From: Pseudomonadota bacterium
GTDB lineage: Bacteria; Myxococcota_A; UBA796; SXON01
Direction of reading: 5' to 3'
Length of the DNA: 64,000 nucleotides
NCBI GenBank assembly: GCA_030685065.1
Contig: JAUXQH010000175.1
Span: forward strand, 1 to 64,000
Position numbers and translations under genes: made by a program. Under the pieces are notes generated by a model. That model was not told the origin of the DNA. It saw only the letters and a list, made by a program, of their open reading frames with translations, and made no database searches. Positions 42,590-57,878 of this stretch are shown in pieces; the first letter of the stretch is position 1, and every line of letters starts with the position of its first letter.

Positions 42590-42964
42590 TCAGGCCCCGG
42601 CGTCGAGCTGCTTGAGGAGCTTCTTCGGCGCGATCGCGCGGTAGCTCTCCTCGACCCACGCTTGCAACAGCGCGAGGTCCGGCTGGTCGACCGGCGCGAA
42701 CTTCGCGCTGACCCACCCGCTCTTGCCGAGCCCGTAGCCGGTCGGCTTGGCGAACGGCAGCGCGAGCGCCTGCTCGCCCGTGGTGGGGAGCTTCACGGAC
42801 AGGCCGAAGCCGCCGCTGGTGTCCTGGGTGTGCCCGAGGAACACGAAGACCTTCTTGTTCACCTTCACCACGCGCTCCCCCCACGGGAAGTCCTCCGTCG
42901 CGCCGGGCAGCGACATGGCGAAGGCGAGCAGGGCGGCGGCGGTCTGGTCGAGGGGGCTGGGCAT
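42590..42964 (-). CDS. MmcQ/YjbR-family protein
   Basis: A 124-residue protein matching MmcQ/YjbR (DUF419): [26 protein letters not shown] at the start, then [24 protein letters not shown] and the C-terminal [14 protein letters not shown]. The family has a CyaY-like fold and its role is unclear, possibly nucleic-acid binding. It starts four bases after the ferredoxin stop and is the last gene of the rSAM2-rSAM1-ferredoxin unit, but is not an obvious RiPP component. Confidence 0.88.
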
Positions 42965-42968
42965 GCGA

Positions 42969-43217
42969 TCAGCCACGGACGCGCAGGCTGACGGGGTCCT
43001 CGAGGTCCCCGACGGCCTCGACCGGGCAGCTCTCGAGCGCGGACCGGAACAGCGCTTCCTCGTCCGGGCGGTGCTCGCGGACGTAGGCCTTGCGATCGGC
43101 ATCGCGCCCGAAGATCTCGGGTGACACATCGGTGCATGTGTCACAGCTGATACATCGCGTATCCACGAACCAGGCGCCGCTCACGTTTTGCGCGTGACGA
43201 CGATTCGGATCAGCCAA
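42969..43217 (-). CDS. Single-cluster [4Fe-4S]-type ferredoxin
   Basis: An 82-residue ferredoxin with CISCDTC (CxxCxxC) and a distant CPVEAV proline-cysteine, enough for one cubane cluster. It starts at TTG 43217, which looks unusual but has AGGAG six bases upstream. It overlaps the 3' end of radical SAM gene rSAM1 by eight bases, which suggests it is the electron donor for these enzymes (inference). A perfect 9-bp palindrome, GTGACACAT-N6-ATGTGTCAC, lies inside the coding sequence. Confidence 0.88.
43121..43144. repeat. Perfect 9-bp inverted repeat in the ferredoxin gene
   Basis: GTGACACAT (43121-43129), CGGTGC spacer, ATGTGTCAC (43136-43144). A related TGATACATCG follows at 43148-43157. 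The form is operator-like. Confidence 0.6.
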
Positions 43218-44307
43218 GTCTCACTCCTCTCACGATTGCGGCCGACGCGGTGACGGGCGCACCCGCCGGCTGCGGGATGGTGCCGCCGCCATTGAGGCGC
43301 TGGCCGTGGTCGTCCGGCTGCTCGTCGCTCCGCATCCCGCGACGGGCCTCGACACGGGCGACGAGCTCCGGTTCGGGCTCGCGTCGGAGGACCCGACGCA
43401 TCACGTCGACCACGCTGCCGGTGAGCGGGAAGAGCTCGGCGGGGTCGTAGTGGTAGCCCATGCTGTACAGGCCCGCGCACACCGGATCGAGCGCGCATGC
43501 GTCACAGGCGGGGGCCTTTCCGTGCAGGAATTGCTTCTGGAGCACGAAGCCCTTCTTGTCGAGGAAGCGGATGCACCGCTCCTCTTCCTTGACGATCTTC
43601 CGTGTCTCCGTGGAGCACTCCGCGAAGTCCGGCATGTAGCAGAGGGGGACCCGCTCGGCGCGGAAGGTGCGGCCGGTGGAGGAGAGGTACTCCATCGCGA
43701 GCCGCAGCGACACCTCGAACTCCGCGAGCTTCGGGATCACGTCGGGGTGACGCTCCGCGCGGTTCATGTTCGGGTCCATGTTGTTCCACACGAAGTGGCG
43801 GACATGGGAGTGGCGGTCGCACACCCACATGACGGTCTCGTGCAGATGGTCGCTGTTGTAGGCGTTGATCACCGTGTTGATGTCGGCGGTGATGCCGACG
43901 CGCTGCACGTTGGTCAGCGCGGCGTCGATGAGGGACCAGGACGCCGGGGTCTGGGTGAGGAAGTCGTGCACCTCGGGGCGGCACGAGTGCAGCGACAGGT
44001 GCACGTGCGTCAGCCCGGCGTCCACCAGCTCGGTGAGGAACGCGAGATCGGCGATGCGCTGCCCGTTGGTGATCATCCGGATGAACAGGCCCCGCGCCTT
44101 GGCGTAGCGGATCGCGGGGAGCAGCAGCGGGGCGATGGTGGGCTCGCCGCCGGTGAGGATGACGCCGTCGTAGTCGCGCGCGACCAGGTCATCGATCATG
44201 CCGCGGAGCTCGAGGTCCTCGAGCTCGACGCCGCTGGGGGGGTTGGAGCAGAAGCGGCAGTGCTGCTTGCAGTCACGCGTGAGCTGGAGGTACCCGAGGT
44301 TGGCCAC
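43210..44307 (-). CDS. Radical SAM protein with SPASM-like C-terminus (rSAM1)
   Basis: A 365-residue radical SAM enzyme. The SAM-binding cluster motif is C13-KQH-C17-RF-C20, followed by the GGEP motif (LTGGEPTIAP) and NGQR. A C-terminal ACDACALDPVCAGLYSMGYHY gives a Cys-x2-Cys-x5-Cys auxiliary cluster site of the SPASM/twitch type, as in peptide-modifying enzymes. Its GTG start directly follows the rSAM2 stop and its end overlaps the ferredoxin start. I could not match it to a named maturase; the fold and context point to peptide modification. Confidence 0.85.
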   Translation of the reverse strand: MANLGYLQLTRDCKQHCRFCSNPPSGVELEDLELRGMIDDLVARDYDGVILTGGEPTIAPLLLPAIRYAKARGLFIRMITNGQRIADLAFLTELVDAGLTHVHLSLHSCRPEVHDFLTQTPASWSLIDAALTNVQRVGITADINTVINAYNSDHLHETVMWVCDRHSHVRHFVWNNMDPNMNRAERHPDVIPKLAEFEVSLRLAMEYLSSTGRTFRAERVPLCYMPDFAECSTETRKIVKEEERCIRFLDKKGFVLQKQFLHGKAPACDACALDPVCAGLYSMGYHYDPAELFPLTGSVVDVMRRVLRREPEPELVARVEARRGMRSDEQPDDHGQRLNGGGTIPQPAGAPVTASAAIVRGVRLG

Positions 44308-46098
44308 TCAGGACCGCCGGCCGGCGTGAAGATCGATGAACGGCACCGGCTCGTTACCGGGCACCGGCACGCGCGGCGAAGCGGGGAGGGGCGGGGCGCC
44401 GTCCCGCAGGCGGGGCGACACATCGGTGATTTCGAGCCGGCGCACGACCTCGGCCGTATCTCCCGTGAGCGGCACCAGCTGCCGGAAGCCGTGCGCGCGG
44501 ATCGACTGGATGTGCGCGCCCTCGCAGACGTTGTCGGCGGGGCAGGCGCGGCAGCGCGAGGACTTCACGCGGTAGGTCTGCTCGATGTGTCGGTCCACGA
44601 AGGGCTCGATCGCGCGGCGGCCGTCGTCATGGAACAGGCTGGCGTCCAGGATGCGGAGCGGGCGCTCGAGGTGGGCGCCGGGGGCGAGGCAGGCCGGGAG
44701 GTTCTGCGCGCGCGTGCCGGCCGGGAGGGCCCCGAAGAACGCGCGCCAGTCCGGGTCGAGCGTCGCGGAGAGCTCGGCCGTGGCGCGGGTGGGCGCGTGG
44801 AGGATCCACGTGGAGGGGATGGACGGGAGCGCCTGGAGGGCCGCGCACATCTCGAGGTCGAGGTGAACCTCGACCTCGACGCCGGCGTGGAGGAGCGGGA
44901 TGTGGAGGAGCGGGCCGAGGTGCTCGGGGAGGGTGGCCACGATCCGGGAGCCCGCCGCGAGTGACACAAGTGAACCATCTGGCGTGTATCGATCGGCCCG
45001 AAGGTAGAGCGGACCGTGCGGATCGGCGGGGATGCTCGAGACGCCGAGGAGGCGGGCGCCGCCCGGGAGCGCCGCGGGATCGGGGGGGCGTTGCGGGGGG
45101 CTCGCCCCCCGCCCCAAGAGCGTCGGATCCCCGACCCACCACACGTCGAACCGGGCGGCGGTGTGGTCCGCCACGTGCTTGTCGAGCGCCGAACAGAACG
45201 GCTCGATGAAGCAGTGGGGGCAGCGCTCCTTGTCGCGACAGTCGATCGCCGTCCCCTCGTCGAGGTAGCGGCGGAACTGGGTGCGGCGCCCGCCCACCTC
45301 GTCGAGCATCTTGTGGGGGTCCTGGATGAGCTCCTCCATGTCCTCCAGATGGGAGACGGGGAAGCGGTTCGTCCAGATGTGGAATTGGGACGAGCGGGAG
45401 AGGCGGAACACGCGCCGGAGGGCGTCCCGGTGCTCCTCGGGGTCATAGAAGAGGTCCGCCCGGTTGTCCCACGCGACGCCTTGCGGGATGACGTGGAGCA
45501 GGTCGAATTCCTTGACGCCCACGCGCGCGCACAGAGCGACGATGGCCTCGAGATGTTCGACGTTCTGCTTGTTGATGCACACATCGACGTTGACGACGCA
45601 CCGACCGTCACGAACGGCGCGCATCATCGCCTTCATGAGGTTGTCGAAACCGTTTTTCGTGCGCGTCAGTCGGTCGTGCAGCGCCGGCGTGTGCCCGTGG
45701 AGCGAGAACGTGATCTCGTCGAGCCCCGCGTCCATCGCGGCGTGGAAAAAGGCGCGATCGGCGAGCTTCTGCCCGTTGGTCACCGTTTGAACCCAGCGGT
45801 AGCCGGCCTCCTTGCCGTAGCGGATCGCGTCATGGAAGCGGGGGTGGATCGAGCCTTCTCCTCCGCTCACGACGAGCCGCGTCGCGTCCTTCTCCTCGCG
45901 ACCGCGCCGGATCTCGGTCTGGATGTCCTCGAACGGCATGAAGCGGCCGTCCTGCGCCTCGGCGTCCAGACAGAAGACGCACTTGCTGTTGCAGGCGGCC
46001 GTGAGCCGGACCCAGTGCTTGATCTCGTTCGCGACCCGCTCGTGGTCGAACGTGCGCGAGGGGAGAAGGGGAGCGGCCGGCGTGGCCTCGATCGGCAT
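44308..46098 (-). CDS. Radical SAM protein with long C-terminal extension (rSAM2)
   Basis: A 596-residue protein. The radical SAM domain has C36-NSK-C40-VF-C43; the SAM-binding GGEP motif is altered to GGEGS. An auxiliary-type CRDKERCPHCFIEPFC lies near residue 310 and a second SPASM-like CRACPADNVCEGAH near the C-terminus, separated by an extra domain of about 200 residues. A GC-rich palindromic element encoding LGRGASPPQRPP is inserted near residue 330. Residues 30-130 are clearly paralogous to rSAM4. It has TACGTT six bases before its ATG and no ribosome-binding site. Confidence 0.85.
   Translation of the reverse strand: MPIEATPAAPLLPSRTFDHERVANEIKHWVRLTAACNSKCVFCLDAEAQDGRFMPFEDIQTEIRRGREEKDATRLVVSGGEGSIHPRFHDAIRYGKEAGYRWVQTVTNGQKLADRAFFHAAMDAGLDEITFSLHGHTPALHDRLTRTKNGFDNLMKAMMRAVRDGRCVVNVDVCINKQNVEHLEAIVALCARVGVKEFDLLHVIPQGVAWDNRADLFYDPEEHRDALRRVFRLSRSSQFHIWTNRFPVSHLEDMEELIQDPHKMLDEVGGRRTQFRRYLDEGTAIDCRDKERCPHCFIEPFCSALDKHVADHTAARFDVWWVGDPTLLGRGASPPQRPPDPAALPGGARLLGVSSIPADPHGPLYLRADRYTPDGSLVSLAAGSRIVATLPEHLGPLLHIPLLHAGVEVEVHLDLEMCAALQALPSIPSTWILHAPTRATAELSATLDPDWRAFFGALPAGTRAQNLPACLAPGAHLERPLRILDASLFHDDGRRAIEPFVDRHIEQTYRVKSSRCRACPADNVCEGAHIQSIRAHGFRQLVPLTGDTAEVVRRLEITDVSPRLRDGAPPLPASPRVPVPGNEPVPFIDLHAGRRS
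45082..45118 (-). repeat. 37-bp GC-rich palindromic element inside rSAM2
   Basis: The minus strand starts CTTGGGGCGGGGGGC and continues GAGCCCCCCGCAACGCCC, almost the same as 33435-33470. It is in frame and encodes LGRGASPPQRPP. Confidence 0.85.
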
Positions 46099-46104
46099 AC
46101 GTGG

Positions 46105-46110
46105 AACGTA
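46105..46110 (-). promoter_or_regulatory. -10 element of a probable leaderless promoter (rSAM2 operon)
   Basis: TACGTT ends six bases before the ATG at 46098. The divergent HExxH gene starts at 46113, so the rSAM2 promoter overlaps that gene's 5' end. Confidence 0.4.
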
Positions 46111-46112
46111 GC

Positions 46113-47264
46113 ATGCGACCCGCCGCTCCCTACACCCTCCCTGAGCACGGCGTCGTCTGGCTTACGCGGGCGCGATCGCGCTATCTGGCCCGTGCGGCGC
46201 GCCTCCTGCTCGACCCCACCTCCGTGCCGAGCTGGTTGATGTCCGCGTGGTCGGGGGTGCGCGAGCCCTTCGCCGACATTCTCCGCGCGCATCCAGGTGA
46301 CCTCCTCGCCGCGATCGCCCTCCCGCAGGTCGGCGCTCCGCTCTGCGCCGGCCGGCTCGACGAGGCGATTCCCCAGCTCCTCCTCGAGCTCTCCCGGCGG
46401 CGCGTCCTCGGGCGCGAGGGGATGTGGTGGCCCAACGTGGTACCGCGGCTCCTCTCCGCACCACGGGGCGTGGCGCGCACGTTCGACCCGCCGCTGATCG
46501 GCGCCCTGTTCTCCGACGGCGAGGTCGAGATCGCGGCGGGCGTACCCTGGGACGAGGGGGGGGAGCGCGCCTTCCTGCCGCTCGCCCGGGGCGGGTGGCT
46601 GGCGCTCGCGGACAACAACCCGCTCGCGCTGGTGGAGGCCCACCCCGACAAGTCGGGCAACGCGCTCTCCCTGGGCGGGCACACCGCGGAGGCCTGGGTG
46701 GAGGCCCTCGACGCGGCACGGGCGTTGATCGCGCGCGCGCTGCCGGACGTGGCGGCGGAACACGCGCAGGTGCTCGCGCTGGTGGTCCCGGTCGGCTTCG
46801 AGGCCGAAAAGAGCCTCTCGGCGAGCTACCGCGAGGCCATCGGCGTGGTGTACCTGACGCTCCACCCCAAGGTGGCGGTGCTCGCCGAGGCCCTCCTGCA
46901 CGAGGTCCAGCACAACAAGCTGAACCTGCTGTTGTGGAGCGACGCCCTTCTCCATGACGACGGCGTGCTCGTCAGCTCTCCCGTGCGGCCCGATCCTCGC
47001 CCGCTCCTCGGCGTCCTGCTCGCGGTGCACGCGTTCCTTCCCGTGGCGCAGCTCCACCTGGAGCTCCTCGCGCAGGGGCATCCGGCGGGGGATCCCGAGC
47101 GGCTGCGGCAGGTGATGCAGGCGAACCGCGAGGGGCTCGCGGTGCTCGCCGGGGCGCGCCCGACTGCGCTCGGGGCGGTGTTGCTCGACGGCATGCGGGC
47201 GTTGGAGCAGTGGCAGCGGGAGGCCGTCGGTCAGGCCACCGGTGGAGCCACCGGAGCCCGCTGA
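46113..47264 (+). CDS. HExxH-motif putative peptide beta-hydroxylase (aKG-HExxH type)
   Basis: A 383-residue protein with LLHEVQHNKLNLLL: His263, Glu264 and His267 form an HExxH metal site in a text (HExQHxKL) like the alpha-ketoglutarate-dependent HExxH peptide-modification proteins found in RiPP clusters, which hydroxylate a precursor side chain at the beta carbon. The remainder is helical with no signal peptide, so cytoplasmic. The ATG at 46113 has GGAA six bases upstream; an in-frame GTG at 46101 is an alternative. It is divergent from rSAM2 by 14 bases and its 3' end overlaps rSAM3 by 34 bases. Confidence 0.75.
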   Translation: MRPAAPYTLPEHGVVWLTRARSRYLARAARLLLDPTSVPSWLMSAWSGVREPFADILRAHPGDLLAAIALPQVGAPLCAGRLDEAIPQLLLELSRRRVLGREGMWWPNVVPRLLSAPRGVARTFDPPLIGALFSDGEVEIAAGVPWDEGGERAFLPLARGGWLALADNNPLALVEAHPDKSGNALSLGGHTAEAWVEALDAARALIARALPDVAAEHAQVLALVVPVGFEAEKSLSASYREAIGVVYLTLHPKVAVLAEALLHEVQHNKLNLLLWSDALLHDDGVLVSSPVRPDPRPLLGVLLAVHAFLPVAQLHLELLAQGHPAGDPERLRQVMQANREGLAVLAGARPTALGAVLLDGMRALEQWQREAVGQATGGATGAR

Positions 47265-48826
47265 CAGGACCCCCACACCGCCCGAGGCCCCGCCGCCTGG
47301 TAGAGCATCGTCTGATACAGCGATACATCGGGTGATACATCGGGTGATACATCGGGCGATGTATCGCCGGGGGTGTAGGTCTCCACCACGCAGCGGGGGA
47401 GCAGCTCCTGGAGCCGGGACAACGCGGCGGTGAAGCGCACCGCCGCCCCTTCGCCCGCCTCCACTCCGAGCAGCGGCGCCCGGATGCGGGTGAGGCCGGC
47501 CATCCGCTCCGCGGCGGCGGTGGTCATCGTGTCGAGCGGCTCGATCGGCCCCCAGACCTCGATCGTGGCGAAGCCGAGGCGCCGGGCCTCCCGGATGACG
47601 GCGGGGAGGCCGGGGTGGCTCCAGGGGGAGGCCCCGGCGAAGACGATGCCGCGTGCGCCGTCGGACGCCGCTCGGACGACGCGCTGGCGGAGCGTGCGCT
47701 CGGGTTCGGTGGGCCACGCGTCCCCGTAGGCGCGTCGCGTCGCGCAGCCGGGACACGCGAGGACGCAGGTCGCTTCGACGTGCAACACGATCGGATCCGG
47801 GCCGATCCGCGGGCGCTCCGGCACGGGGTCTCCCCCGCGCCAGGCGCGCACCCACGGCACGCTGGTCGAGGGGGAGCGCCCCGCGCGAGGAGGGGGAGGG
47901 CCCTCGTGTGGGGAGGGCGCGACCGGCGGGCTCTCGGGGGCCGCGGTGTCGACGGGCGTGACGATCTCGTCCCAGCCGAAGCGATCGGCGTAGCCGGCCG
48001 CCAGGCCGGGGCAGGCCGAGCGCACGGGGCACGCGACGCAGGGGGGGCCGTATCGGTAGGGCGCGGCTGGCTCGTCCATCCCAACCGGGAAGGCTCGCCG
48101 CGCGGCCGGGACATCGAGGCGATCGGCGGCGGCGGCGCGCTTGGGGCCGAGCACGCAGAGCGGAAGCCCCACGGTCTCCGCCTCGCGGCGGAGGCTCCAC
48201 GCGAGCGCCAGGGCGTCCTGGAGGGGGCCGCGCACCAGGGCCAGCCGCGGCAGGAGCATCCGCCACTCCGCGGCCGCTTGCCCGTCCCCACGGGCCAGGA
48301 TCCACCGCTGCCCATCCGCCCCGAGCCGCGGCACCAGCGCCGCCAGGGCGCCGATCTCTCCGGTGCCCGAGCGCGTCAGCACGGTGTTGACCCGGGTGGC
48401 GACGCCGGCGGCCACGAGGCGGCGTAGCCCCACCGAGGCCTGCTTGTGCGCCCCCTCTGCCTGGGTGAGCCAGTCGTGGAGCGCTGGCGTCGCGGCGTGC
48501 AGGGCGACCACGGCGTCGGTGAGGCCCGCGGCCTGGAGGCGCGTCGCCGCCCCCACCGCCGCGAGGATGCGACCGTTCGTCTGGATGCCGACCCGCGCGA
48601 AGCCCGCGGCGCGCGCGGCCTCGATGAGATCCGGGAGGTCGGGCCGGAGCGTGACCTCTCCCCCGGCGAGCCACACCGCGTCGGCGCCCGCGGCGCGTTC
48701 CCGCACGAGGAGCGCCGTGAGCTCGGCGAGCGTGGCGTCCGCGAGGGTGTCTCGGCGGGCGCCCTGGTCGCAGAAGCGGCAGCGGTTGTTGCAGCGATAG
48801 CCGGTCCGCAGGTCGAGCCAGGGCAT
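47231..48826 (-). CDS. Tandem-domain radical SAM protein (rSAM3)
   Basis: A 531-residue protein with two radical SAM-like domains. Domain 1: C12-NNR-C16-RF-C19, GGEVT in place of GGEP, and a SPASM-like CVACPVRSACPGL (263-275). A Pro-rich linker (about 295-345) joins domain 2, which carries C354-VLA-C358-PG-C361 and only a weak barrel. A 12-base repeat (47321-47366) encodes SPDV units near the C-terminus. Its ATG overlaps the stop of the GH36 gene, so the two are co-translated; the 3' end overlaps the HExxH gene tail-to-tail. Confidence 0.8.
   Translation of the reverse strand: MPWLDLRTGYRCNNRCRFCDQGARRDTLADATLAELTALLVRERAAGADAVWLAGGEVTLRPDLPDLIEAARAAGFARVGIQTNGRILAAVGAATRLQAAGLTDAVVALHAATPALHDWLTQAEGAHKQASVGLRRLVAAGVATRVNTVLTRSGTGEIGALAALVPRLGADGQRWILARGDGQAAAEWRMLLPRLALVRGPLQDALALAWSLRREAETVGLPLCVLGPKRAAAADRLDVPAARRAFPVGMDEPAAPYRYGPPCVACPVRSACPGLAAGYADRFGWDEIVTPVDTAAPESPPVAPSPHEGPPPPRAGRSPSTSVPWVRAWRGGDPVPERPRIGPDPIVLHVEATCVLACPGCATRRAYGDAWPTEPERTLRQRVVRAASDGARGIVFAGASPWSHPGLPAVIREARRLGFATIEVWGPIEPLDTMTTAAAERMAGLTRIRAPLLGVEAGEGAAVRFTAALSRLQELLPRCVVETYTPGDTSPDVSPDVSPDVSLYQTMLYQAAGPRAVWGSCQRAPVAPPVA
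47321..47366. repeat. 12-bp GATACATCG tandem repeat with inverted copy
   Basis: CGATACATCG (47321), GGTGATACATCG (47331), GGTGATACATCG (47343) and the inverted CGATGTATCG (47357-47366). On the minus strand it encodes DTSPDVSPDVSPDVS of rSAM3. Confidence 0.85.
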
Positions 48827-50688
48827 CAGCGCACCCACACTTCGCCGGCGCCGGGCGCGAGCGTGCGCGGGCCCGCGGCCGCGGTCTCTCCGCTCAGGAG
48901 GTCGGTGCCGCCGGGGCCCTCCACCACCGCGTCGAGGTCCCCCAGGTTGAGCAGGACGGTCGCGTCGTCGCCGATGGTCCAGGCCGTCGGGGCCTCGTCA
49001 TCGGGCACCCCGGCCTCCATGAACGGCCCGGCGTCGAAGCCCGAGACGAACGCCAGCGGATCGCGCGGGGTGGTGGGGAGCCCGGCGAGAGAGACCACGT
49101 CGGGGTCGAGGGCGCCGGCGAGGCGCGCGGGGTCGAGCGCGGCGAAGGCGTCTCCGAGGAGCCAGACGCCGCCCGAGGCCACGTTCGCGGCGATGGCGCC
49201 ACGGGCCTCTCCATCGGTGAACGGGGCGCGGAGCAGGAGGTTGTCCGCGTCGTTCCACCACCAGATCCCGTTCGCGAACGCGCGGGCTGCCGTGCTGCGG
49301 GCCTGCCACCGCAGGTAGGGCCGACGCGGGTCGGGGTCGACGTCGAACGCGATGTCCGCGCCCGAACGCCAGGAGTCGGCGTAGCCGACGCTCGGCAGCA
49401 TGGGCGCGCCGCACGCGAGAAACCAGGTGTCCTCGCCCATCGCGGAGCGGAGGAGCGCCATTCCGAGCCGGTAGGCCTCCGCCCCGGTCACGTTGTCGTG
49501 GCGCACGCCCTCGACCGCCCCGGCGTAGAGGAAGTCGAGCTTGAGATAGGCCCATCCATCCGCCACCTTGGCGGCGATCTGGCCGCGGAGCCACGCGGCC
49601 GCGTCCGGATGGGTGATGTCGAGGATCGCGTAGTCGTTGCCCGAGAGCCGGCCGTGCGTGAGCTCGTCGCCGTTGGCGTCGCGCACCCACCAGTCGGCGT
49701 TCGCGGCGTAGGTGTCGGTCGACCGGGCGACGTAGAACGGCGCCATCCAGAGCCCGGGCACCATTCCGGCGGCCGCGATCTCGGCGGCGAAGCCGGCGCT
49801 CCCGGAGGGGAAACGCTCGTTCGTCTCCCACTCGCCCCACGCGACCTCCCAGCCGTCGTCCACCTGGAACACCTCGATGGGCGCATGGGAGTCATCCAGG
49901 TTCGCCGCGGCGTCCAGGTTGTCGAGCAGGTCGGCCTCGGATGCTTCCCCGTAGTACTGATACCAGTCCGACCAGCCCACCCACGCGCCCCGCGTCGGCG
50001 TCCGCGCGGGCACCTCCGCCGCCCAGCCCTTCCACAGCCCGTGGGCGTCCCCGCCCACCTCGACCGAGAGCGGATCGAGCGTGATGGACTCCCCGGCGGC
50101 GAGCGGAATCCGCTCTCCGCGCATGCCGTACACCGCCCACGCCTCGGTCTCCGAGAAGGCCACGTAGAACTTCGTGCGCGTGACCCCTGTCGCCCCCACG
50201 AGCAGGGCGTCTCCGCCGGGCACGCCGACGAGCCCTGCCCACCAGGACGTCGCGCTTGTCTCCTGCGCGATCGTCTCGACGTCGCCGTCTCCCGCCGCGA
50301 GCGGCACGCCGTCCTCCACGGTCGGTGCGCCGAGCTCGGTGACGCCCGACCACGACCACGACTGGTAGCCCTGGCGCCAGAGGACGGCCTCGCCCGCGCC
50401 GTCCGCGAGCGCCCAGGTCCCGGTGAACACGACTCCCTCCAGCACGGCGCCCTCGGGACCCGCCGTGACGGTGGGGACGAACGCGCCGCCCACCACGGCC
50501 ACCGACACCTGGAGCTCTCCTTCCCCGCGGGCGGCCCCGGTCAGCGCGACCTCGCCGTGCTCCTCCCAGGTGAATGCGAGCGACGCGCCGTCCGCGCTTC
50601 GAATGGGCGTGGGGGTGGGCTCCGCGGTCGGGGCCCCGGTGCACCCGCAGATGTGCAATGAGACGAGGGCGCCCAAGGAGAATCGCAT
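48826..50688 (-). CDS. Exported GH36-type alpha-galactosidase-like lipoprotein
   Basis: A 620-residue glycoside hydrolase of the GH36 (melibiase) group. FQVDDGWE, YLKLDFLYAGAV (nucleophile aspartate) and RSGADIAFD (acid/base region) match the (beta/alpha)8 active site. The N-terminus (MRFSLGALVSLHICGC) looks like a lipoprotein signal, though the lipobox is unusual. GH36 enzymes release alpha-linked galactose or related sugars. Its ATG has TACACT six bases upstream and no ribosome-binding site. It is odd beside a radical SAM gene, and the stop/start overlap with rSAM3 suggests a functional link. Confidence 0.85.
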   Translation of the reverse strand: MRFSLGALVSLHICGCTGAPTAEPTPTPIRSADGASLAFTWEEHGEVALTGAARGEGELQVSVAVVGGAFVPTVTAGPEGAVLEGVVFTGTWALADGAGEAVLWRQGYQSWSWSGVTELGAPTVEDGVPLAAGDGDVETIAQETSATSWWAGLVGVPGGDALLVGATGVTRTKFYVAFSETEAWAVYGMRGERIPLAAGESITLDPLSVEVGGDAHGLWKGWAAEVPARTPTRGAWVGWSDWYQYYGEASEADLLDNLDAAANLDDSHAPIEVFQVDDGWEVAWGEWETNERFPSGSAGFAAEIAAAGMVPGLWMAPFYVARSTDTYAANADWWVRDANGDELTHGRLSGNDYAILDITHPDAAAWLRGQIAAKVADGWAYLKLDFLYAGAVEGVRHDNVTGAEAYRLGMALLRSAMGEDTWFLACGAPMLPSVGYADSWRSGADIAFDVDPDPRRPYLRWQARSTAARAFANGIWWWNDADNLLLRAPFTDGEARGAIAANVASGGVWLLGDAFAALDPARLAGALDPDVVSLAGLPTTPRDPLAFVSGFDAGPFMEAGVPDDEAPTAWTIGDDATVLLNLGDLDAVVEGPGGTDLLSGETAAAGPRTLAPGAGEVWVR

Positions 50689-50694
50689 TCGCTC

Positions 50695-50700
50695 AGTGTA
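50695..50700 (-). promoter_or_regulatory. -10 element of a probable leaderless promoter (GH36-rSAM3)
   Basis: TACACT on the minus strand, six bases before the ATG at 50688; no Shine-Dalgarno sequence. Confidence 0.45.
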
Positions 50701-50800
50701 TCGGCCAGGAAGCCGCACGGGTCCAGAAGTGCTAACGAGTGCGCGCGCCAGCTCGCTCGGGCGGGTGCGTCGTCCCGTGCCGCAAATGGAGGAGATCCAC

Positions 50801-51640
50801 ATGACCCGCCGCATTCTCGCCCTCTCGCTGCCCGTCCTCGCGATCTTCGTCGTCGCGGCGCGCAAGCCCACCGATTCGAAGCACGAGAACCACTACAAGG
50901 CCGTGAACGTGCCGGTGGCCGAGGGGCTGGGCCTCGCCGCGAGCTCCGCCGAGTCGCAGAAGGAGTTCCTCAAGCTCGACTCCAAGCTCACCAACACCAC
51001 CGGCGATCGCGTGTTCGTGGTGCCGAAGGACAAGTCCGAGTTCGTCCTCCCCACCGGCCCCATGACCGTGAGGGCGCCGAAGCTCTTCGGGGGGCCGCTC
51101 GTCATCCCCCCGGGGGAGAGCCGCTCGAACGTCTGGATGGTGGACGGTGAGACCGGTTTTCACGTGGACAGCTTCGCGTTCAACGCGAAGGGGATCCTGA
51201 GCGCGCCCAACGTGGGTACCGTGGTTCCGGCGCCGGACTTCCAGATGATCCCGAGCCGGAACGACTTCGCGGCCGGGCCGTTCAGCTGCAACGTGAACGA
51301 CGTGAACCAGACCACCGACTACTCGCTCGCGGTGTTCACCTGCACCTACGCGGGCACGGGCCTCGGCTTCATCGACGGGCGCAAGATCTCCGCGCGCTCG
51401 AAGAGCGGCGCGTTGTACGCCAACCTGTACAAGAACTCGAAGCGGGACGTGCTCCTCCCGGGCGACAAGGCCAAGTTCAGCATCCGCATCGAGATCCCCG
51501 CGACCGACGGGGACATGCAGTTCGTTCCGTACCACCTCGTGTTCGGTGACACGTTCTCCGAGGCGGTGACCACCCCGTTGACCGTCGAGACGTGGAGCTT
51601 CGAGGTCGATCCCGCGTTGACCGCCGCGGCGAACAAGTAG
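50801..51640 (+). CDS. Exported protein of unknown function in the RiPP locus
   Basis: A 279-residue protein with a short signal (MTRRILALSLPVLAIFVVAA). The mature part is beta-rich and reads like a two-lobe sandwich, with two cysteines (SCNVN, FTCTY). GGAGGAG before the ATG makes the start certain. It is the only gene of the central RiPP region on this strand apart from the HExxH gene, divergent from the GH36 gene and convergent with rSAM4. No family recognised; it could be an exported partner of the product. Confidence 0.65.
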   Translation: MTRRILALSLPVLAIFVVAARKPTDSKHENHYKAVNVPVAEGLGLAASSAESQKEFLKLDSKLTNTTGDRVFVVPKDKSEFVLPTGPMTVRAPKLFGGPLVIPPGESRSNVWMVDGETGFHVDSFAFNAKGILSAPNVGTVVPAPDFQMIPSRNDFAAGPFSCNVNDVNQTTDYSLAVFTCTYAGTGLGFIDGRKISARSKSGALYANLYKNSKRDVLLPGDKAKFSIRIEIPATDGDMQFVPYHLVFGDTFSEAVTTPLTVETWSFEVDPALTAAANK

Positions 51641-51659
51641 CGGAGGCCCATCCTGGATT

Positions 51660-52730
51660 TCAGCCCGGGATGGGGCGGAGCTCGCCTTCTCCGTGGATGC
51701 CGAGGTATTCCCGCCACGTGCCTTCGCAGACGTGGGTGTAGGCGCACGTCTCGCAGGCCTTCACGTGGCGCTTCAGATCGTAGCGCTTGCGCTCCTGCCA
51801 GTTGAAGCGGGCGCGGCCGCCCTCGACCGTCGCGATGCCTTCGGGGAAGCCCTCGGCGTTCAAGGTGCGGATCGAGCAGTCGGTGTCGAGGTCGCGGAAC
51901 TCGCCGATGTAGCGCCGGGCCATCGACTTGCTGGACACGAGGGTGAGCGGCAGCACGCACAGCGGGAAGCCGCCGAGCGTGAACGTGCGCTTGTACTTGT
52001 ACTCGTTGAGCAGCACCGCTTTGACGACGTAGGGGACCACCTCGGTGTACGTCGGGATCAGCGAGGTCTCTGTCTCCGCGTAGCCCTCCGCGCGCACGAA
52101 GTTGGCGCGCACGTCGTCCAGGCCGAGCTCGTAGAAGAACTTGAGGATGGCCGGCAGGTGCTTGTAGTTCCACGCGTTCACGACGACGTTGACCGAGACG
52201 TTGTCCCGCAGGAACCCCTCTTCCCGCTTCTTCAACAGGTAGAGCAGGCCGGACTTCTTCTTCTCGAAGTTGCCGGGTACGCGCGTGAGGGCGTCCTCGA
52301 GCGCGGGGGTGTGCCCGTGCATGCTCATCGTGACGCGGGTGAGCCCGGCGTCGAGCACCTTGTCGACGAAGTCGTGGCGGAAGAACTTGGTCCCGTTGGT
52401 CGCCAACGCGATGCGGGTGTAGCCGAGGTCCCGCGCGAAGCGGATCGCGTCGAGGATCCAGGGGTAGGTCGTCGGCTCGCCGCCGAGAAAACCGACCGAA
52501 CGGTTGCCCGCGTCGAACCAACGCTGGATCTCCGCCTGCATGTCCGCGAACGGCATGTAGCGACGCATCTCGGTCGCCGGGAGGCCGTCCAGGCAGAACA
52601 CGCACTTGTTGTTGCAAATCTTGCCGACGTTGATCTCGACGTTCTTGCGGGTGTCCCGCCACATGTTCGCCACGTCGGGGCGGGTCTCGGCGACCGCCTG
52701 GGTTTCGGGGATCGGGCGCGTCTCGTTCAT
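51660..52730 (-). CDS. Radical SAM/SPASM-like protein (rSAM4)
   Basis: A 356-residue radical SAM enzyme: C39-NNK-C43-VF-C46, LGGEPTTYP and a C-terminal ACETCAYTHVCEGTWREYL auxiliary-cluster site. Its first 130 residues align with rSAM2 (CxxxCVFCLD, MPFxDxQxEI, GHTPAL). The ATG at 52730 overlaps the rSAM5 stop. It is the last gene of the precursor operon, so likely modifies the Ser-His-Gly repeat or its leader (inference). Length is typical of single-domain peptide maturases. Confidence 0.88.
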   Translation of the reverse strand: MNETRPIPETQAVAETRPDVANMWRDTRKNVEINVGKICNNKCVFCLDGLPATEMRRYMPFADMQAEIQRWFDAGNRSVGFLGGEPTTYPWILDAIRFARDLGYTRIALATNGTKFFRHDFVDKVLDAGLTRVTMSMHGHTPALEDALTRVPGNFEKKKSGLLYLLKKREEGFLRDNVSVNVVVNAWNYKHLPAILKFFYELGLDDVRANFVRAEGYAETETSLIPTYTEVVPYVVKAVLLNEYKYKRTFTLGGFPLCVLPLTLVSSKSMARRYIGEFRDLDTDCSIRTLNAEGFPEGIATVEGGRARFNWQERKRYDLKRHVKACETCAYTHVCEGTWREYLGIHGEGELRPIPG

Positions 52731-53698
52731 GCGGCCTCCAGGGGGGTCAGCTCGGTGGGGCCGAAGCGGTCGAGGTAGGCGCCGAACACGCCCGCACAGA
52801 CGCCGTTGTAGGCGCAGGTGCCGCAGGCGTCGGCATGGCGGCGGCCGCGGTCGGGCGCCCAGTTGTAGAGACCGTCGAGCGACACGCTCTGGGGGTGGCG
52901 CACCCATTCCACGGTCACCCGCGGGTTCCAGTACAGATCGTTGCTCGTCATCCGCACGCTCCCGAGCGCGCACATGGGCACCCCGAAGAAGCGGACGATC
53001 GCGGGGGACGCGGCGCGCACCACCTCGGGCGCGAGCGCGGCGATCTCGTCGAGGCGCACCGGGAGGCGATCGTACCGATCCGCGCCCAGGCCCTCGGGGG
53101 TGAGGTTGGAGATGATGAGCAAGGCGGCGTCGACGTCGTGAGCGAGCGCGGCGGTCTCCACCAGGCGGTCGACATTCTCACGGGTGAGCACGCTGTTGAT
53201 GTACGGGCGGAAGCCGGGCTTCACCGCCCGGGCGTTGGCGATCGCGCGGGTCACGCGCTCGAACGAGCCGACACGGCCGGCGCAGGGGTCGTGCGTGGCG
53301 GCGTCCGGGCCGTGCACCGAGAACAGGGCCTCGTCGAGGTACGGCATGGCCGCCTCGGCGAAGCGCGGATCCGCGAGGCGCGTGCCGATGGTGCCGATGC
53401 TCGTGCGCAGGCCGAGGGCCTTGGCGAGCTTGAGCACGTCCACGAAGCGCGGGTGGATCGTGGGCTCTCCGCCGGTGAAGTGCACCGACTCGACCCCGCG
53501 CGAGACCTGCTCCTTGAGGATCCGGGTGATGCGCCCGAACGTCACCGGGAAGGCGTTGAACTCCTTCATCCGGTGGTCCTCGGAGCAGAACGTGCACCGC
53601 TCCGGGCAGGTGTAGGTGATGTGCAGCTCCAACCGCCGCATGCGCTGGCCGTGGGGGCCGATCCAGGGGGTCTCGACGACCGGATCGATGTCGGTCAC
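52727..53698 (-). CDS. Radical SAM/SPASM-like protein (rSAM5)
   Basis: A 323-residue radical SAM enzyme: C31-PER-C35-TF-C38, FTGGEPTIHP, and a C-terminal ACGTCAYNGVCAGVFGAYLDRFG auxiliary motif. Start GTG at 53698 overlaps the rSAM6 stop (GTGA). The C-terminal Cys block is close to that of rSAM4 and to the mid-protein block of rSAM3, indicating a family expansion inside this locus. Exact reaction unknown. Confidence 0.88.
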   Translation of the reverse strand: MTDIDPVVETPWIGPHGQRMRRLELHITYTCPERCTFCSEDHRMKEFNAFPVTFGRITRILKEQVSRGVESVHFTGGEPTIHPRFVDVLKLAKALGLRTSIGTIGTRLADPRFAEAAMPYLDEALFSVHGPDAATHDPCAGRVGSFERVTRAIANARAVKPGFRPYINSVLTRENVDRLVETAALAHDVDAALLIISNLTPEGLGADRYDRLPVRLDEIAALAPEVVRAASPAIVRFFGVPMCALGSVRMTSNDLYWNPRVTVEWVRHPQSVSLDGLYNWAPDRGRRHADACGTCAYNGVCAGVFGAYLDRFGPTELTPLEAA

Positions 53699-54693
53699 GC
53701 CGCACCCGACACATGCGATGGGCGCGCGGCGCGCGCGCGGAAGTAGGCGGGGTAGAGGCGGTCACACAGGCGGGTGAGCACCGCGTCCACCGCCGCGGTG
53801 CTCGCGAGCACCTCGGGGGTGTAGACCTCGCGAAGGAGCCCGGGGACCCGCGCCGCGGCCTCCGCGAGCACCTCGGCGGAGGGAGGATCGTCCAGGGTGC
53901 CCACCGCGGTGCGGTCCCCCACGGCCTCGGCGAGCACGAGGTTCGAGGGGTGGATCGTCCGATCGGAGTCGACCACGAACCCGGTGTTGAAGAAGGGGGT
54001 CGGCGCGCGGGTGTAGAGGTTGCGGAGGTAGAGCCGCCCGCCGGCCTCCCAGTCGCGCTCGAACTCGGTGGCGATCGCGTCGAAGCTGCCCTCCAACGCC
54101 GAGAGCTGCGCGGCGCTCCAGGGCAGGTAGTAGCCGGGGAGCAGGTTGAACCGCACCACGCCCATCGCGCGGAGAGCGCGGAAGTTGGCGGCGGCGCGGG
54201 AGGCGGTCGAGGGGGCGACGGTCTGCGTCACCACGAAGCGCGGCAGGCGGAGCAGCTCGGGCAGCCAGCGCTCGATCTGCGCGAACGAGGGGGCCTCGCC
54301 GGGGAGCGGGCGCCGGAGACCGTCGTGGTCACGCGGGGCGCCGTCCATCGAGAGGGTGAGCGTCACGCGGGGGTGGGCGCGCAGGAGATCCAGGATTCCC
54401 GCGTCGAAGCGGGTGCCGTTCGTCGAGAGGTAGACCGATACATTCGATACATTCGCCGCGTGTGTCAGCACCGCCCCGACGATGTCGGGGCGGAGCAGCG
54501 GCTCCCCGCCGAAGAGCTTGATGTCGCCCCCGCCGTAGCGAGCCACGAACAGGTCGATGGCGCGGCGGGCGTCGTCAGCCGAGAGGTCGGGGACGCCGTC
54601 CTTCACCGTCGGGCAGTAGGCGCAGCGCAGGTTGCAGCGCCGCGTGATCGTCAGGATCAGCGCCGCGCGCCAGCGGTCGGCACGGGCGCGCAC
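53695..54693 (-). CDS. Radical SAM protein without auxiliary-cluster domain (rSAM6)
   Basis: A 332-residue radical SAM protein: C20-NLR-C24-AY-C27, LFGGEPLLRPD and STNG. Unlike its neighbours it has only one later cysteine, so no SPASM-type cluster. The GTG at 54693 lies four bases after the precursor stop; a longer frame upstream merely reads through the repeat in another frame and is not coding. Position directly after the precursor is where HxsC or another maturase could be expected, but the characteristic HxsC C-terminus is absent. Confidence 0.85.
   Translation of the reverse strand: MRARADRWRAALILTITRRCNLRCAYCPTVKDGVPDLSADDARRAIDLFVARYGGGDIKLFGGEPLLRPDIVGAVLTHAANVSNVSVYLSTNGTRFDAGILDLLRAHPRVTLTLSMDGAPRDHDGLRRPLPGEAPSFAQIERWLPELLRLPRFVVTQTVAPSTASRAAANFRALRAMGVVRFNLLPGYYLPWSAAQLSALEGSFDAIATEFERDWEAGGRLYLRNLYTRAPTPFFNTGFVVDSDRTIHPSNLVLAEAVGDRTAVGTLDDPPSAEVLAEAAARVPGLLREVYTPEVLASTAAVDAVLTRLCDRLYPAYFRARAARPSHVSGAA
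54436..54455. repeat. CGATACATT direct repeat inside rSAM6
   Basis: CGATACATTCGATACATTCG, two copies with a 9-base period, encoding NVSNVS on the minus strand. A member of the GAYACATC motif group. Confidence 0.5.
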
Positions 54694-54697
54694 CCCG

Positions 54698-55099
54698 TCA
54701 CCACTGGCCGTGGGAGCCGTGCGAACCGTGGGAGCCATGGGACCCGTGCGAGCCATGGGACCCGTGCGAGCCGTGAGACCCATGCGAGCCGTGGGACCCG
54801 TGCGAGCCGTGGGACCCGTGCGAGCCGTGAGACCCGTGCGAGCAGTGCTGCGCGAGGAGCGCCTCGTACCGGATGGGCTCGAGCCCGCGGCGGTCGAGCG
54901 AGCTCGGATCCAGCTCGAGATCACCCGCGGTGGCGTTGAGCAGGAGCAGGCTCTGGGCGATGTCGTCCCCCTCCTGACGCGCCGCGCGGGCCTCGTCCGG
55001 CAAGAGGAGCTGATCCGCGCTCTTGGGGAGACTGGGGAAGTCGTCGGCGAGCGCCGCCGGCTTCTTGCCCGGGAGGCTGGGGTTCTTGGGAAGGCTCAT
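54698..55099 (-). CDS. RiPP precursor with Cys-(Ser-His-Gly)15-Gln-Trp core (HxsA-like)
   Basis: A 133-residue precursor. Residues 1-85 are a leader (MSLPKNPSLPGKKP..., acidic and Leu-rich DIAQSLLLLNATAGDLELD), followed by Cys86, fifteen exact Ser-His-Gly triplets (87-131) and a terminal Gln-Trp. Read as His-Gly-Ser this is the His-Xaa-Ser repeat that defines HxsA. The ATG at 55099 overlaps the HxsB stop and GAGGGG lies upstream; the stop is four bases before rSAM6. Encoded by 9-base repeats that could expand or contract in frame. The repeat should bind metal unless modified. Confidence 0.92.
   Translation of the reverse strand: MSLPKNPSLPGKKPAALADDFPSLPKSADQLLLPDEARAARQEGDDIAQSLLLLNATAGDLELDPSSLDRRGLEPIRYEALLAQHCSHGSHGSHGSHGSHGSHGSHGSHGSHGSHGSHGSHGSHGSHGSHGQW
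54707..54841 (-). repeat. Fifteen 9-bp repeats coding for Ser-His-Gly
   Basis: 135 bases in perfect 9-base phase. A second-order 18-base period is visible because TCG and TCC serine codons and GGG and GGC glycine codons alternate over much of the array. Confidence 0.95.
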
Positions 55100-56613
55100 G
55101 CGGACCCCTCGGTCGGGTAGGGGATTGTTCCCGGGCGGGACCGCTGGATGGTCCAGCGGCGAAAGATCTTCTCGGTGCGACCGTCCGTGTCCTCGGCGAG
55201 GCGTCGGAACAGGTCGGCTTGCTCGCCGTAGAACTCCTGGCACTTGCGCGACCGAGGGCGCTGGCCGAAGATGTCCCCGTCGAACATGTAGTTGTGCAGC
55301 GGCTGGATGCCGCACGTCGGCTTGTAGACGCAGTCGGCGCAGGCGGGCAGGGCCTCCTGGATGCTCGCGACCGCGAGGGCCCGCACGGTGGGGTGCGCGG
55401 CGATGTCGGCGTACGTCGAGCCCGACACGTGCCCGAGCCTGAAGAAGTCATTGCCCATGTGGGCCACCATCCGGCCTTCGTCGCACGTGTAGATCGCGCC
55501 GTCGAAGTTGTAGGCCAGCTGTGCGCTGCCCGAGCCGCTGGGGGAGCGGCAATCCGTGTAGTTGGGGTCATCCGGGGTGAGCATCTTCGTCAGGAACATC
55601 GCCGCCTGGCGCTCCTGGATGAAGGTGCCGGCCTGGTTGAGCTCGAGGATGTAGTCGAGCGTGTCCCGGTAGAAGGTGAGGAACTCCTCCATCGTGTAGC
55701 CGATCTGCTTCCACGTGTTCACCGCGAAGCCGAACGGGTTGAGCGGGCGGAGGTGGATGCTCTTGATGCCGCGCTTCACGTACTCGTCGACGATCTCGCG
55801 CCCGCGGCCGAGGGAGGCGCGCGTGCAGGTCATCAGCGCGTCGACGTGGAAGAGGTTCGGATCGAGCCCCTTGTCGATCCACGCCTGGTTGAACCGCTCC
55901 ATCCAGCCGCTGACGGTCTGGTAGCTCGAGCTCTTCCCGATCCAGCCCCGATTTGCGTTGTGCAGATCCTCCGGGCCGTCGAGCGAGGTGCAGACCATCA
56001 CCCCCTTCTCGACGAGAAAAGCCATCTTCTCTTCGTCCATCAGGGTCAGGTTCGTGACGAGGGAGAACAGCAGCTCTCGGTTTTCGTACCGGTTCTTCTC
56101 GAGGGCGTGCTCGACGATGAAGCGCAGCGCCGCGAAGTTGGCCGTGGGCTCGCCGCCCTGGAACTCGAAGTTCAGGACCCGCGACGGCGTGCTGAAGGCG
56201 AACTCGACGACCTCGCGCGCGGTGGCGAGGGACATGTCCGTGTCCACGCGGTCCATGTCGGTGCGCGACGCGTGGCAGTACTTGCACGCGTGGTTGCAGC
56301 GGAGCGTCGTGACCACGATGTGCAGATGCGGGCCGCCGCCGAGGAAGCTCTTCTTGCGGCGGATGCGCGCGGCCATGCGGTCGATGTCGAGCCCGGTCTT
56401 GAAGAAGCCCTTGCGTTCGAGCTCGGTGCGCTCCTCGCCGTCGATCTTCCCGCGCAGGAACGTGTCGAAGCGCTCCTTGGGGAGGAAGTGGAACTCGCCG
56501 CCCTCGTTCGTGAGCAGGACCTTTCCGCCCACGACGCCGTAGCGGAAGAAGCCGACCTCGGGCGCGAGCGCGCTCGGATCGACGCGGAGCGGGGTGGTGA
56601 GGCGGCCGGTCAT
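55096..56613 (-). CDS. HxsB-like radical SAM/SPASM maturase
   Basis: A 505-residue radical SAM protein. The N-terminal 60 residues (GFFRYGVVGGKVLLTNEGGEF...FLPKERFDTFLRG) match the start of the His-Xaa-Ser system maturase HxsB. The cluster motif is C106-NHA-C110-KY-C113, then FQGGEPT, and the C-terminus has PACADCVYKPTCGIQP with further cysteines for auxiliary clusters. It overlaps both the upstream HxsD-like gene and the precursor by four bases. In known Hxs systems HxsB modifies the repeat protein; the chemistry is not known to me. Confidence 0.88.
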   Translation of the reverse strand: MTGRLTTPLRVDPSALAPEVGFFRYGVVGGKVLLTNEGGEFHFLPKERFDTFLRGKIDGEERTELERKGFFKTGLDIDRMAARIRRKKSFLGGGPHLHIVVTTLRCNHACKYCHASRTDMDRVDTDMSLATAREVVEFAFSTPSRVLNFEFQGGEPTANFAALRFIVEHALEKNRYENRELLFSLVTNLTLMDEEKMAFLVEKGVMVCTSLDGPEDLHNANRGWIGKSSSYQTVSGWMERFNQAWIDKGLDPNLFHVDALMTCTRASLGRGREIVDEYVKRGIKSIHLRPLNPFGFAVNTWKQIGYTMEEFLTFYRDTLDYILELNQAGTFIQERQAAMFLTKMLTPDDPNYTDCRSPSGSGSAQLAYNFDGAIYTCDEGRMVAHMGNDFFRLGHVSGSTYADIAAHPTVRALAVASIQEALPACADCVYKPTCGIQPLHNYMFDGDIFGQRPRSRKCQEFYGEQADLFRRLAEDTDGRTEKIFRRWTIQRSRPGTIPYPTEGSA

Positions 56614-56903
56614 CTGGTCAGGGCCGAGGAGAGGGCCGCGCGGGCGTCGACGATGGTCTGGAACAGGGCATGGTTCGCGAACTCGTCCGGCAGGCGATCG
56701 CGGAGGCGGTCGGGCACGCTGGAGAAGGTCACCAGGATGTCGGTGTCTCCAGCGGGACCTGTGGCCTCGATCACGGCGGGGCCGAACGCGGCGAACCGCT
56801 CGGCGGCGCGCGAAACGGCGGGGGTCGCGTACAGCGAGCGGTGGAAGCGAACCGTCACGGCCGCCCCGGGGCTCGCGTCCGGAGGAGCGGCGGGCTCAAC
56901 CAT
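56610..56903 (-). CDS. Second HxsD-like protein
   Basis: A 97-residue protein resembling HxsD in its central pattern: VTVRFHRSLYATPAVSRAAERFA, a beta hairpin, then EFANHALFQTIVDARAAL, corresponding to HxsD's F-x-N-E-L-L-x-x-A-L-R. It lacks the C-terminal helix of the larger HxsD next door. It overlaps that gene by eight bases and HxsB by four. Possibly a leader-binding or scaffold subunit; a heterodimer of the two HxsD-like proteins is a reasonable guess. Confidence 0.7.
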   Translation of the reverse strand: MVEPAAPPDASPGAAVTVRFHRSLYATPAVSRAAERFAAFGPAVIEATGPAGDTDILVTFSSVPDRLRDRLPDEFANHALFQTIVDARAALSSALTR

Positions 56904-57318
56904 CCGACTTCTCCCACGGGACCGGGATCTCGAGCGGCTCCATCTCCTCGGCGTCCAGCTCGGCGAGGAGCTTGTCGATGGAGGAGGGGGCGTCTACCGA
57001 GAAGAAGGCCTTGGCCAGGATGAACTCGCGGATCTTGGCGTTGGACGCGCCGACGGCCTTGCGGAGCGCCTGGTTGAGCAGCTCGTTCGCGAACTCGCCC
57101 GCGAGGGCCTCGAGGGCCTCGTGGTCCGCCTCGTCCTTCGACTTGAGCACGACGGCGACGCGCTGATCGGCGGGGCGATCGAGGAACACGTAGCAACGAT
57201 CGAGGAAGAGGTAGGCGGCGCCCTGAATCGTGTCCAGGGCGTAGATGGACTCGTCGACCACGAAGGAGACGCGGCGCGCGCCGACCTCGGTCGTGAGCCC
57301 GTTCGGCTCGATCGTCAT
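56896..57318 (-). CDS. HxsD-like protein
   Basis: A 140-residue protein matching HxsD of the His-Xaa-Ser system: VDESIYALDTIQGAAYLFLDRCYVFLD at the start and FANELLNQALRKAVGASNAKIREFILAKAF in the second half, followed by an acidic tail of about 30 residues not seen in short HxsD proteins. HxsD has no known enzyme activity and is thought to assist the radical SAM maturases. ATG 57318 overlaps the stop of the Tat-signal gene. Confidence 0.85.
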   Translation of the reverse strand: MTIEPNGLTTEVGARRVSFVVDESIYALDTIQGAAYLFLDRCYVFLDRPADQRVAVVLKSKDEADHEALEALAGEFANELLNQALRKAVGASNAKIREFILAKAFFSVDAPSSIDKLLAELDAEEMEPLEIPVPWEKSDG

Positions 57319-57878
57319 CCCGGCACCAGCCGCGTGGCGGCCTGGGCGAGCGCGTCTGCGTGGCGCCACATCCGCTCGTCATGGGGCTCGAGCGCCGCGA
57401 GGGAGTCCAGATCGCGCTCCTCGTTGTCCGAGACGATGGCGGCGAGGCGGACCACCGCGCGCCCGAGCGACTCGTCCATCGGGGACGCGCCGTCGCCGCC
57501 GTCCATCACGATGAAATCGATGTACGCGCTCGACGCGGGGCCGCGCGGGGCGCCGATGCGCAGGGAGAGATCGACGCGGGCGGTGCGCCCGTCCTCATGC
57601 AGGAGGTTGAGCGTCACCGCGCCCTGCACCGCCGGGTAGAGGCGCGCGACGTGCCAGCCGAGGCCGATGGCGCTCCCTGCCTGGAGCGGCTGGATCAGCC
57701 ACCAGGGGCTCTGGTGGACGCCGGTCGCGGCCGCGAGGCCTGCCGACACGCCGGTTGCACCGAGGACGGGGGCGCCGAGGAGGGGCGCGCCGGGTGCTGC
57801 AACCGCGGCGGCGCTGCCGACGGCCGAGGACGCGAGGCCGAAAACGGCGAGGCGAAGAAACGCGCGACGGTCTTCCAT
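57315..57878 (-). CDS. Tat-signal exported protein, first gene of the Hxs-like operon
   Basis: A 187-residue protein with a twin-arginine signal (MEDRRAFLRLAVFGLASSAVGSAAA; RRAFL matches RRxFL), so it is folded before export. The mature part contains PWWLIQPLQAGSAIGLGWHVARLYP and later acidic helices; it has no cysteine and I recognise no family. It overlaps HxsD by four bases, so it belongs to the operon. It may export or bind the finished product in the periplasm. There is no Shine-Dalgarno sequence but TATCCT lies six bases before the ATG. Confidence 0.75.
   Translation of the reverse strand: MEDRRAFLRLAVFGLASSAVGSAAAVAAPGAPLLGAPVLGATGVSAGLAAATGVHQSPWWLIQPLQAGSAIGLGWHVARLYPAVQGAVTLNLLHEDGRTARVDLSLRIGAPRGPASSAYIDFIVMDGGDGASPMDESLGRAVVRLAAIVSDNEERDLDSLAALEPHDERMWRHADALAQAATRLVPG

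Follow-up and report, generated by a model that had tools for sequence, protein, structure and literature searches.

The window analysed here is a stretch of 64,000 nucleotides (positions 1 to 64,000 of contig JAUXQH010000175.1, assembly GCA_030685065.1, forward strand) from a bacterium recorded as Pseudomonadota and placed by GTDB in Myxococcota_A (UBA796; SXON01), and it contains a set of seven radical S-adenosyl-L-methionine (SAM) proteins encoded on the minus strand at 43.2-56.6 kb. Judged by its sequence, this gene cluster is a His-Xaa-Ser (Hxs) maturation system of the HxsA4 type for a ribosomally synthesised and post-translationally modified peptide (RiPP), since HxsA4, HxsB and HxsD each pass curated NCBIfam models. 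The HxsA4-type precursor (54698..55099, minus strand) obtains 75.9 bits with NF038313 (cut-off 55), HxsB (55096..56613, minus strand), a radical SAM protein with a SPASM-like C terminus, 493.5 bits with TIGR03978 (cut-off 370), and HxsD (56896..57318, minus strand) 70.5 bits with TIGR03976 (cut-off 50). It is highly probable that a single Hxs pathway acts on this precursor. That the repeat units of the precursor are themselves modified is likely, and the reading as a whole, a pathway with modified repeat units, is put forward with the same good confidence. The cluster can be regarded as an unusually enzyme-rich version of the His-Xaa-Ser pathway, a variant of a known and uncharacterised kind of RiPP.

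The precursor gene was missed in a preliminary description of this DNA; it lies in a frame that was not read there. It encodes 133 residues, a leader followed by HC(SHG)15QW, it overlaps the end of the HxsB gene and it is directly followed by the gene of a PapB-like radical SAM protein, here called PapBl. The fifteen Ser-His-Gly (SHG) units occupy 135 bases (54707..54841, minus strand) and a tandem repeat was detected at 54708-54847. Among 55 precursors, SHG accounts for 932 of the 949 repeat units, the others being SHA (14), SHS (2) and SQG (1), and all six serine codons are in use in the arrays; this near-constancy at the protein level together with the free use of codons therefore indicates selection on the protein. 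Complete cores hold from 4 to 49 SHG units and the majority of the cores start with HC. The window's genome has one (SHG)n array, and a search of the genome with a degenerate HGS-repeat pattern found no second precursor of the (SHG)n type. For this reason the earlier suggestion that the enzymes could serve more than one precursor finds no support, although there may be a precursor that lacks these repeats. The other possibility raised at that time, several sequential modifications, stands to the extent that several modifications of one substrate are the natural reading of such a gene set with one precursor.

Seven matches to PF04055 above the Pfam cut-off, all of them on the minus strand, were obtained (43825-44286, 45532-46005, 48377-48805, 52137-52634, 53144-53620, 54304-54651 and 55945-56313). 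The seven open reading frames (ORFs) hold eight CX3CX2C motifs, two in the ORF at 47.2-48.8 kb and one in each of the others, which agrees with the preliminary count. The statement that six of the seven proteins have SPASM-like Cys blocks was also confirmed, as a C-terminal C-x2-C-x5-C site is conserved in all except the protein at 53.7-54.7 kb (PapBl), in which the Cys residues of CX3CX2C are the only ones fully conserved in the ortholog alignment. Two gene boundaries were corrected: the radical SAM gene at 51.7-52.7 kb, read in its own frame, extends over 51660-52730, and that at 53.7-54.7 kb starts near 54693 and not at 54924, the extension being an out-of-frame read through the precursor repeats. 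With 82 radical SAM matches in the 8.09 Mb assembly, approximately 0.13 would be expected per 13 kb, and the Poisson chance of finding seven is about 1e-10 for any one segment of that length, a rough estimate, since genes that belong to one pathway lie together.

Five of the seven proteins, all encoded on the minus strand, are HxsC-like: HxsCa (43210..44307; 80.8 bits with TIGR03977, below the cut-off of 267.9), HxsCb (44308..46098), which has a second half with four conserved Cys and no CX3CX2C, HxsCc (47231..48826), which carries a partial second radical SAM half with the eighth motif, an HxsC4-like protein (51660..52730; 158.7 bits with NF038332, below the cut-off of 500) and HxsCd (52727..53698), assigned from the HxsC model ranking, the tree and the table of Cys conservation. 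These are the top five TIGR03977 matches among all radical SAM proteins of the genome, none of them exceeding the cut-off (the best reached 81.7 bits), and they group in one part of the tree. In a quick tree of 74 sequences, which has some long branches and took in 28 other radical SAM loci of the genome out of its 82 matches, HxsB, PapBl, HxsCa, HxsCb, HxsCd and the HxsC4-like protein each fall in a clade of their own together with orthologs of other families (98-100 in the Shimodaira-Hasegawa-like approximate likelihood ratio test, SH-aLRT), the placement of HxsCc being less firm (SH-aLRT 95). Every paralog is matched by orthologs of its own elsewhere in the phylum, in other families, and on this phylogeny the HxsC-like expansion is therefore an old one and not recent or local; HxsB and PapBl are lineages separate from it. 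The idea of a locally amplified family was thus correct in recognising one family, that of the five HxsC-like proteins, and finds no support as regards the local origin of the amplification and the inclusion of HxsB and PapBl.

No genus other than that of the window showed the second half of HxsCc. For HxsCb the predicted model has a mean predicted local distance difference test (pLDDT) score of 84 and its N-terminal half matches radical SAM folds with Z of about 20; for its second half, which may be a degenerate radical SAM barrel, profile comparison picks up mainly the Cys site, and the structure comparison is dominated by the first half. The double length of HxsCb and HxsCc in the window, and a second half of HxsCb that has Cys sites in the absence of CX3CX2C, would be consistent with several radical SAM proteins acting as non-catalytic partners or scaffolds which hold the long repeat substrate while one or two perform the chemistry. 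This is nevertheless quite improbable, since CX3CX2C is invariant among the orthologs of six of the proteins and is present in 9 of the 10 HxsCc rows, and its conservation along with that of the C-terminal Cys sites suggests cluster-binding, active enzymes.

The genes of the Tat-signal (twin-arginine translocation signal) protein, HxsD, an HxsD-like small protein, HxsB, HxsA, PapBl, HxsCd and the HxsC4-like protein follow each other with overlaps of 4 to 8 bases or 4 bases apart, so this run of eight genes looks like one operon. The HxsD-like protein (56610..56903, minus strand) stays slightly below the NF038315 cut-off (39.8 bits, cut-off 41) and is conserved in position. Between this run and HxsCc, at 48826-51640, an alpha-galactosidase-like gene and a lipoprotein-like gene on the opposite strand split the cluster in two blocks, and the separation could be taken as a sign that two unrelated radical SAM clusters, or housekeeping radical SAM genes, are adjacent by chance. 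Both inserted genes are, however, absent from locus L019, of the same genus, and from L021, where HxsCc comes directly after the HxsC4-like gene (L020 has the lipoprotein-like gene), and therefore the two blocks are one cluster; two unrelated neighbouring clusters were rejected on account of these relatives. Moreover no protein reached the cut-off of any housekeeping model, so the alternative considered in the preliminary description, that most of the proteins would prove to be housekeeping enzymes, fails. Both blocks also occur together through the window's family, in which gene content and order are constant, and a synteny conserved in this way contradicts a chance association, which we consider extremely improbable. 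The alpha-galactosidase, lipoprotein-like and YjbR genes were rejected as parts of the system for being missing from most relatives.

The co-occurrence of the genes in other genomes, which had been proposed as a check, was thus found within the family, and it extends beyond it. HxsB is present in 125 of the 377 sampled genomes of the phylum and PapBl in 42; 39 of these 42 also have HxsB, and in 32 of them PapBl is at 5 kb or less from HxsB on one contig, the rest being mostly at contig ends. In genome G049 (L045/L093 and L094, contigs C133 and C140) the PapBl gene next to HxsB is broken up over several frames, and a better C-terminal part is found on another contig, which can be a broken gene, a second copy or an assembly fault. 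Nearly all named matches are metagenome assemblies, with Myxococcota, Deltaproteobacteria or Proteobacteria as their label; L056 and L064 have a myxobacterial-type cluster in records titled Klebsiella pneumoniae MAG (metagenome-assembled genome), and these look like labelling errors.

The precursors are of two types, with cores ending in Gly-Gln-Trp (GQW) as in the window and GS-type cores, nearly all GSW. PapBl (53695..54693, minus strand) was found at 36 of 40 GQW loci and HxsCd at 32 of 40, whereas at the 12 GS-type loci neither of them occurs; the GQW loci lacking PapBl or HxsCd are mostly cut contigs. Both types occur, with one locus each, in genome G180. An HxsC4 above the NF038332 cut-off is present in 34 of the 377 genomes, and in all five fetched regions with a true HxsC4 (L120, L123, L131, L136 and L147) the precursor is GSW, so that the window's system is a sister variant of that modelled by NCBIfam. 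From the association with the core type it may tentatively be proposed that the Gln-Trp end is where PapBl and HxsCd act. A different role for PapBl would be the formation of a thioether from the single Cys preceding the repeats, as done by PapB in ranthipeptides, given that PapB is its closest named family (NF047865, 94.9 bits, below the cut-off of 340) and that most cores begin with HC. This is very unlikely: in L083, L095 and L097 the core has Ala or Ser instead of Cys, yet PapBl is there (intact in L083, truncated where the contig ends in L095 and L097), which speaks against an essential Cys thioether made by this enzyme, and the GSW loci keep the core Cys while PapBl is absent from them.

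GQW-type loci with enough flanking DNA hold 6 to 8 radical SAM proteins, in several families including distant Myxococcota (counts of 10 in L037 and 8 in L045 include gene pieces counted one by one). In many Hxs loci of the phylum two radical SAM proteins suffice. Another Hxs type with only two was seen in L116 and L118 (G338 and G112), with HRSHSSHRSH-like precursors on the opposite side of HxsB. It might be supposed from the sufficiency of two enzymes that the repeats are modified by HxsB and one or two HxsC-like proteins and that the others work on a second substrate, such as the leader, an unrecognised peptide or the Tat-signal protein, which is always encoded and is doubled along with a second precursor in L037. 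We consider such a division of labour unlikely, as all seven radical SAM proteins stay with one precursor type across families and the genome offers no second (SHG)n precursor.

In the proposed pathway, in which the repeat units of the single precursor are modified, the leader would be held by HxsD, the HxsD-like protein and the N-terminal part of HxsB, while HxsB and the HxsC-like enzymes would move along the repeats and introduce a radical-made modification at successive Ser-His-Gly units. This modification would most likely resemble that of triceptides, with the side chain of a His linked to that of the Ser two residues further on (i, i+2). Two precedents favour such an i/i+2 link between His and Ser. 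The enzymes of triceptides connect residues at positions i and i+2, with Phe-Ser and motifs containing His among those linked (PMC11002830), and ChlH, an HExxH enzyme, acts on a peptide already provided with a cyclophane and hydroxylates its His and Asp (PMC12636437). By such analogy a His-Ser cyclophane is a possible product, although its identity as such is doubtful. In the window a stand-alone aKG-HExxH peptide beta-hydroxylase (46101..47264, plus strand; TIGR04267, 94.1 bits, cut-off 40), with the HExxH motif kept in 10 of 10 homologs, would add beta-hydroxyls, and the electrons would come from a single-cluster ferredoxin (42969..43217, minus strand; PF13370, 57.2 bits, cut-off 24.5) whose position is conserved within the family. 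PapBl and HxsCd would act on the Gly-Gln-Trp end or depend on it.

The product might leave the cytoplasm by the Tat route. The protein specified by the first gene of the operon (57315..57878, minus strand) starts with a segment in which an RR pair does not vary; M1, R4 and R5 are invariant in 22 aligned homologs, a pattern typical of Tat signals. Its predicted model has a mean pLDDT of 82, and the fold gave no Foldseek match at E < 0.001, the best VIA-align Z of 5.3 not being meaningful. Two precursors (19 and 42 SHG units) were found in one cluster in L037 (G030:C119) and L081, and in L037 the second precursor is immediately preceded by a second copy of the Tat-signal gene; in L039, a cut locus, a second Tat-signal gene occupies that place too. 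In L137 (G058:C27) the precursor ORF (8516-9025, minus strand) has a Tat-type signal, TRRNFLSKTG..., inside the leader and the precursor of L125 has a weaker Tat-like stretch, TRKQ...; these two loci are without the separate Tat-signal gene of window-type clusters. The constant Tat-signal gene, its second copy beside the second precursor of L037 and the signal in the leader of L137 suggest Tat export, to which we give somewhat less than an even chance. A more speculative extension, and a rather unlikely one, is that a single low-complexity (SHG)n protein is altered by the seven radical SAM enzymes and the hydroxylase in all of its repeats as well as at the GQW end, and becomes a long His-rich rod with many cross-links that leaves by Tat; this would be a modified polymer encoded by a gene and of defined length (n from 4 to about 49), in contrast to small bioactive RiPPs. 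Upstream of the operon, at 57958-60957 on the minus strand, is encoded a surface-type protein of 999 residues in which eight MopE motifs, putatively metal-binding, occur along with FG-GAP repeats.

Several points weigh against the proposed pathway, in which the repeats are modified. The literature searched, where Hxs systems are known from sequence only, yielded no product for any of them, and the chemistry therefore rests on analogy. The model leaves unexplained the need for seven enzymes. HxsB has higher NCBIfam scores for PapB, nif11 and sulfatase maturases than for known cyclophane enzymes, and its top PDB match is 5wgg/5why. Moreover, since the HxsB proteins of the GQW type form one clade in the tree, the link of GQW with PapBl and HxsCd may have arisen only once. 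The cluster provides a clear test substrate, with near-identical SHG units between sharply defined HC and QW termini and with natural variants down to four units. It also provides the complete set of enzymes, which stays together in different families and from which one could learn how a single repetitive substrate is shared by several radical enzymes; the association of PapBl and HxsCd with the GQW end tells which enzymes should be assayed at which end.

When compared with PapB, its best family match, PapBl differs in staying under the cut-off, in having no conserved auxiliary-cluster Cys and in being present where the core Cys is missing. The fused radical SAM/aKG-HExxH enzymes (Chl) resemble the window's system in bringing an HExxH beta-hydroxylase into the same pathway as radical SAM chemistry, although in the window a gene of its own encodes the hydroxylase and the precursor is a repeat protein. 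With triceptides, the RiPPs with three-residue cyclophanes, the system shares i/i+2 motifs, His-Xaa-Ser in the window's core and Phe-Ser or His-containing motifs in known members (PMC11002830), and the ChlB chains (9gm3) match HxsB and PapBl weakly; unlike in triceptides, no cyclophane-forming model reached its cut-off and the window's i/i+2 motif is a sequence feature. The classical His-Xaa-Ser system (HxsA, HxsB, HxsC and HxsD) has in common with the window His-Xaa-Ser repeats and HxsB and HxsD above the cut-off, but the window does not reach the cut-offs of the classical HxsA equivalog TIGR03979 (22.9 bits for the precursor, cut-off 121.65) and of HxsC, TIGR03977 (81.7 against 267.9), and has many more radical SAM proteins than the usual pair. 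With the HxsA4/HxsC4 type (NF038313 and NF038332) the window shares an HxsA4 precursor above the cut-off, HxsB, HxsD, SHG repeats and HxsC-like radical SAM proteins, and it differs from this type in having no HxsC4 above the cut-off (158.7 against 500), in a core that ends in GQW instead of GSW and in the addition of PapBl and HxsCd in a set of seven radical SAM enzymes.

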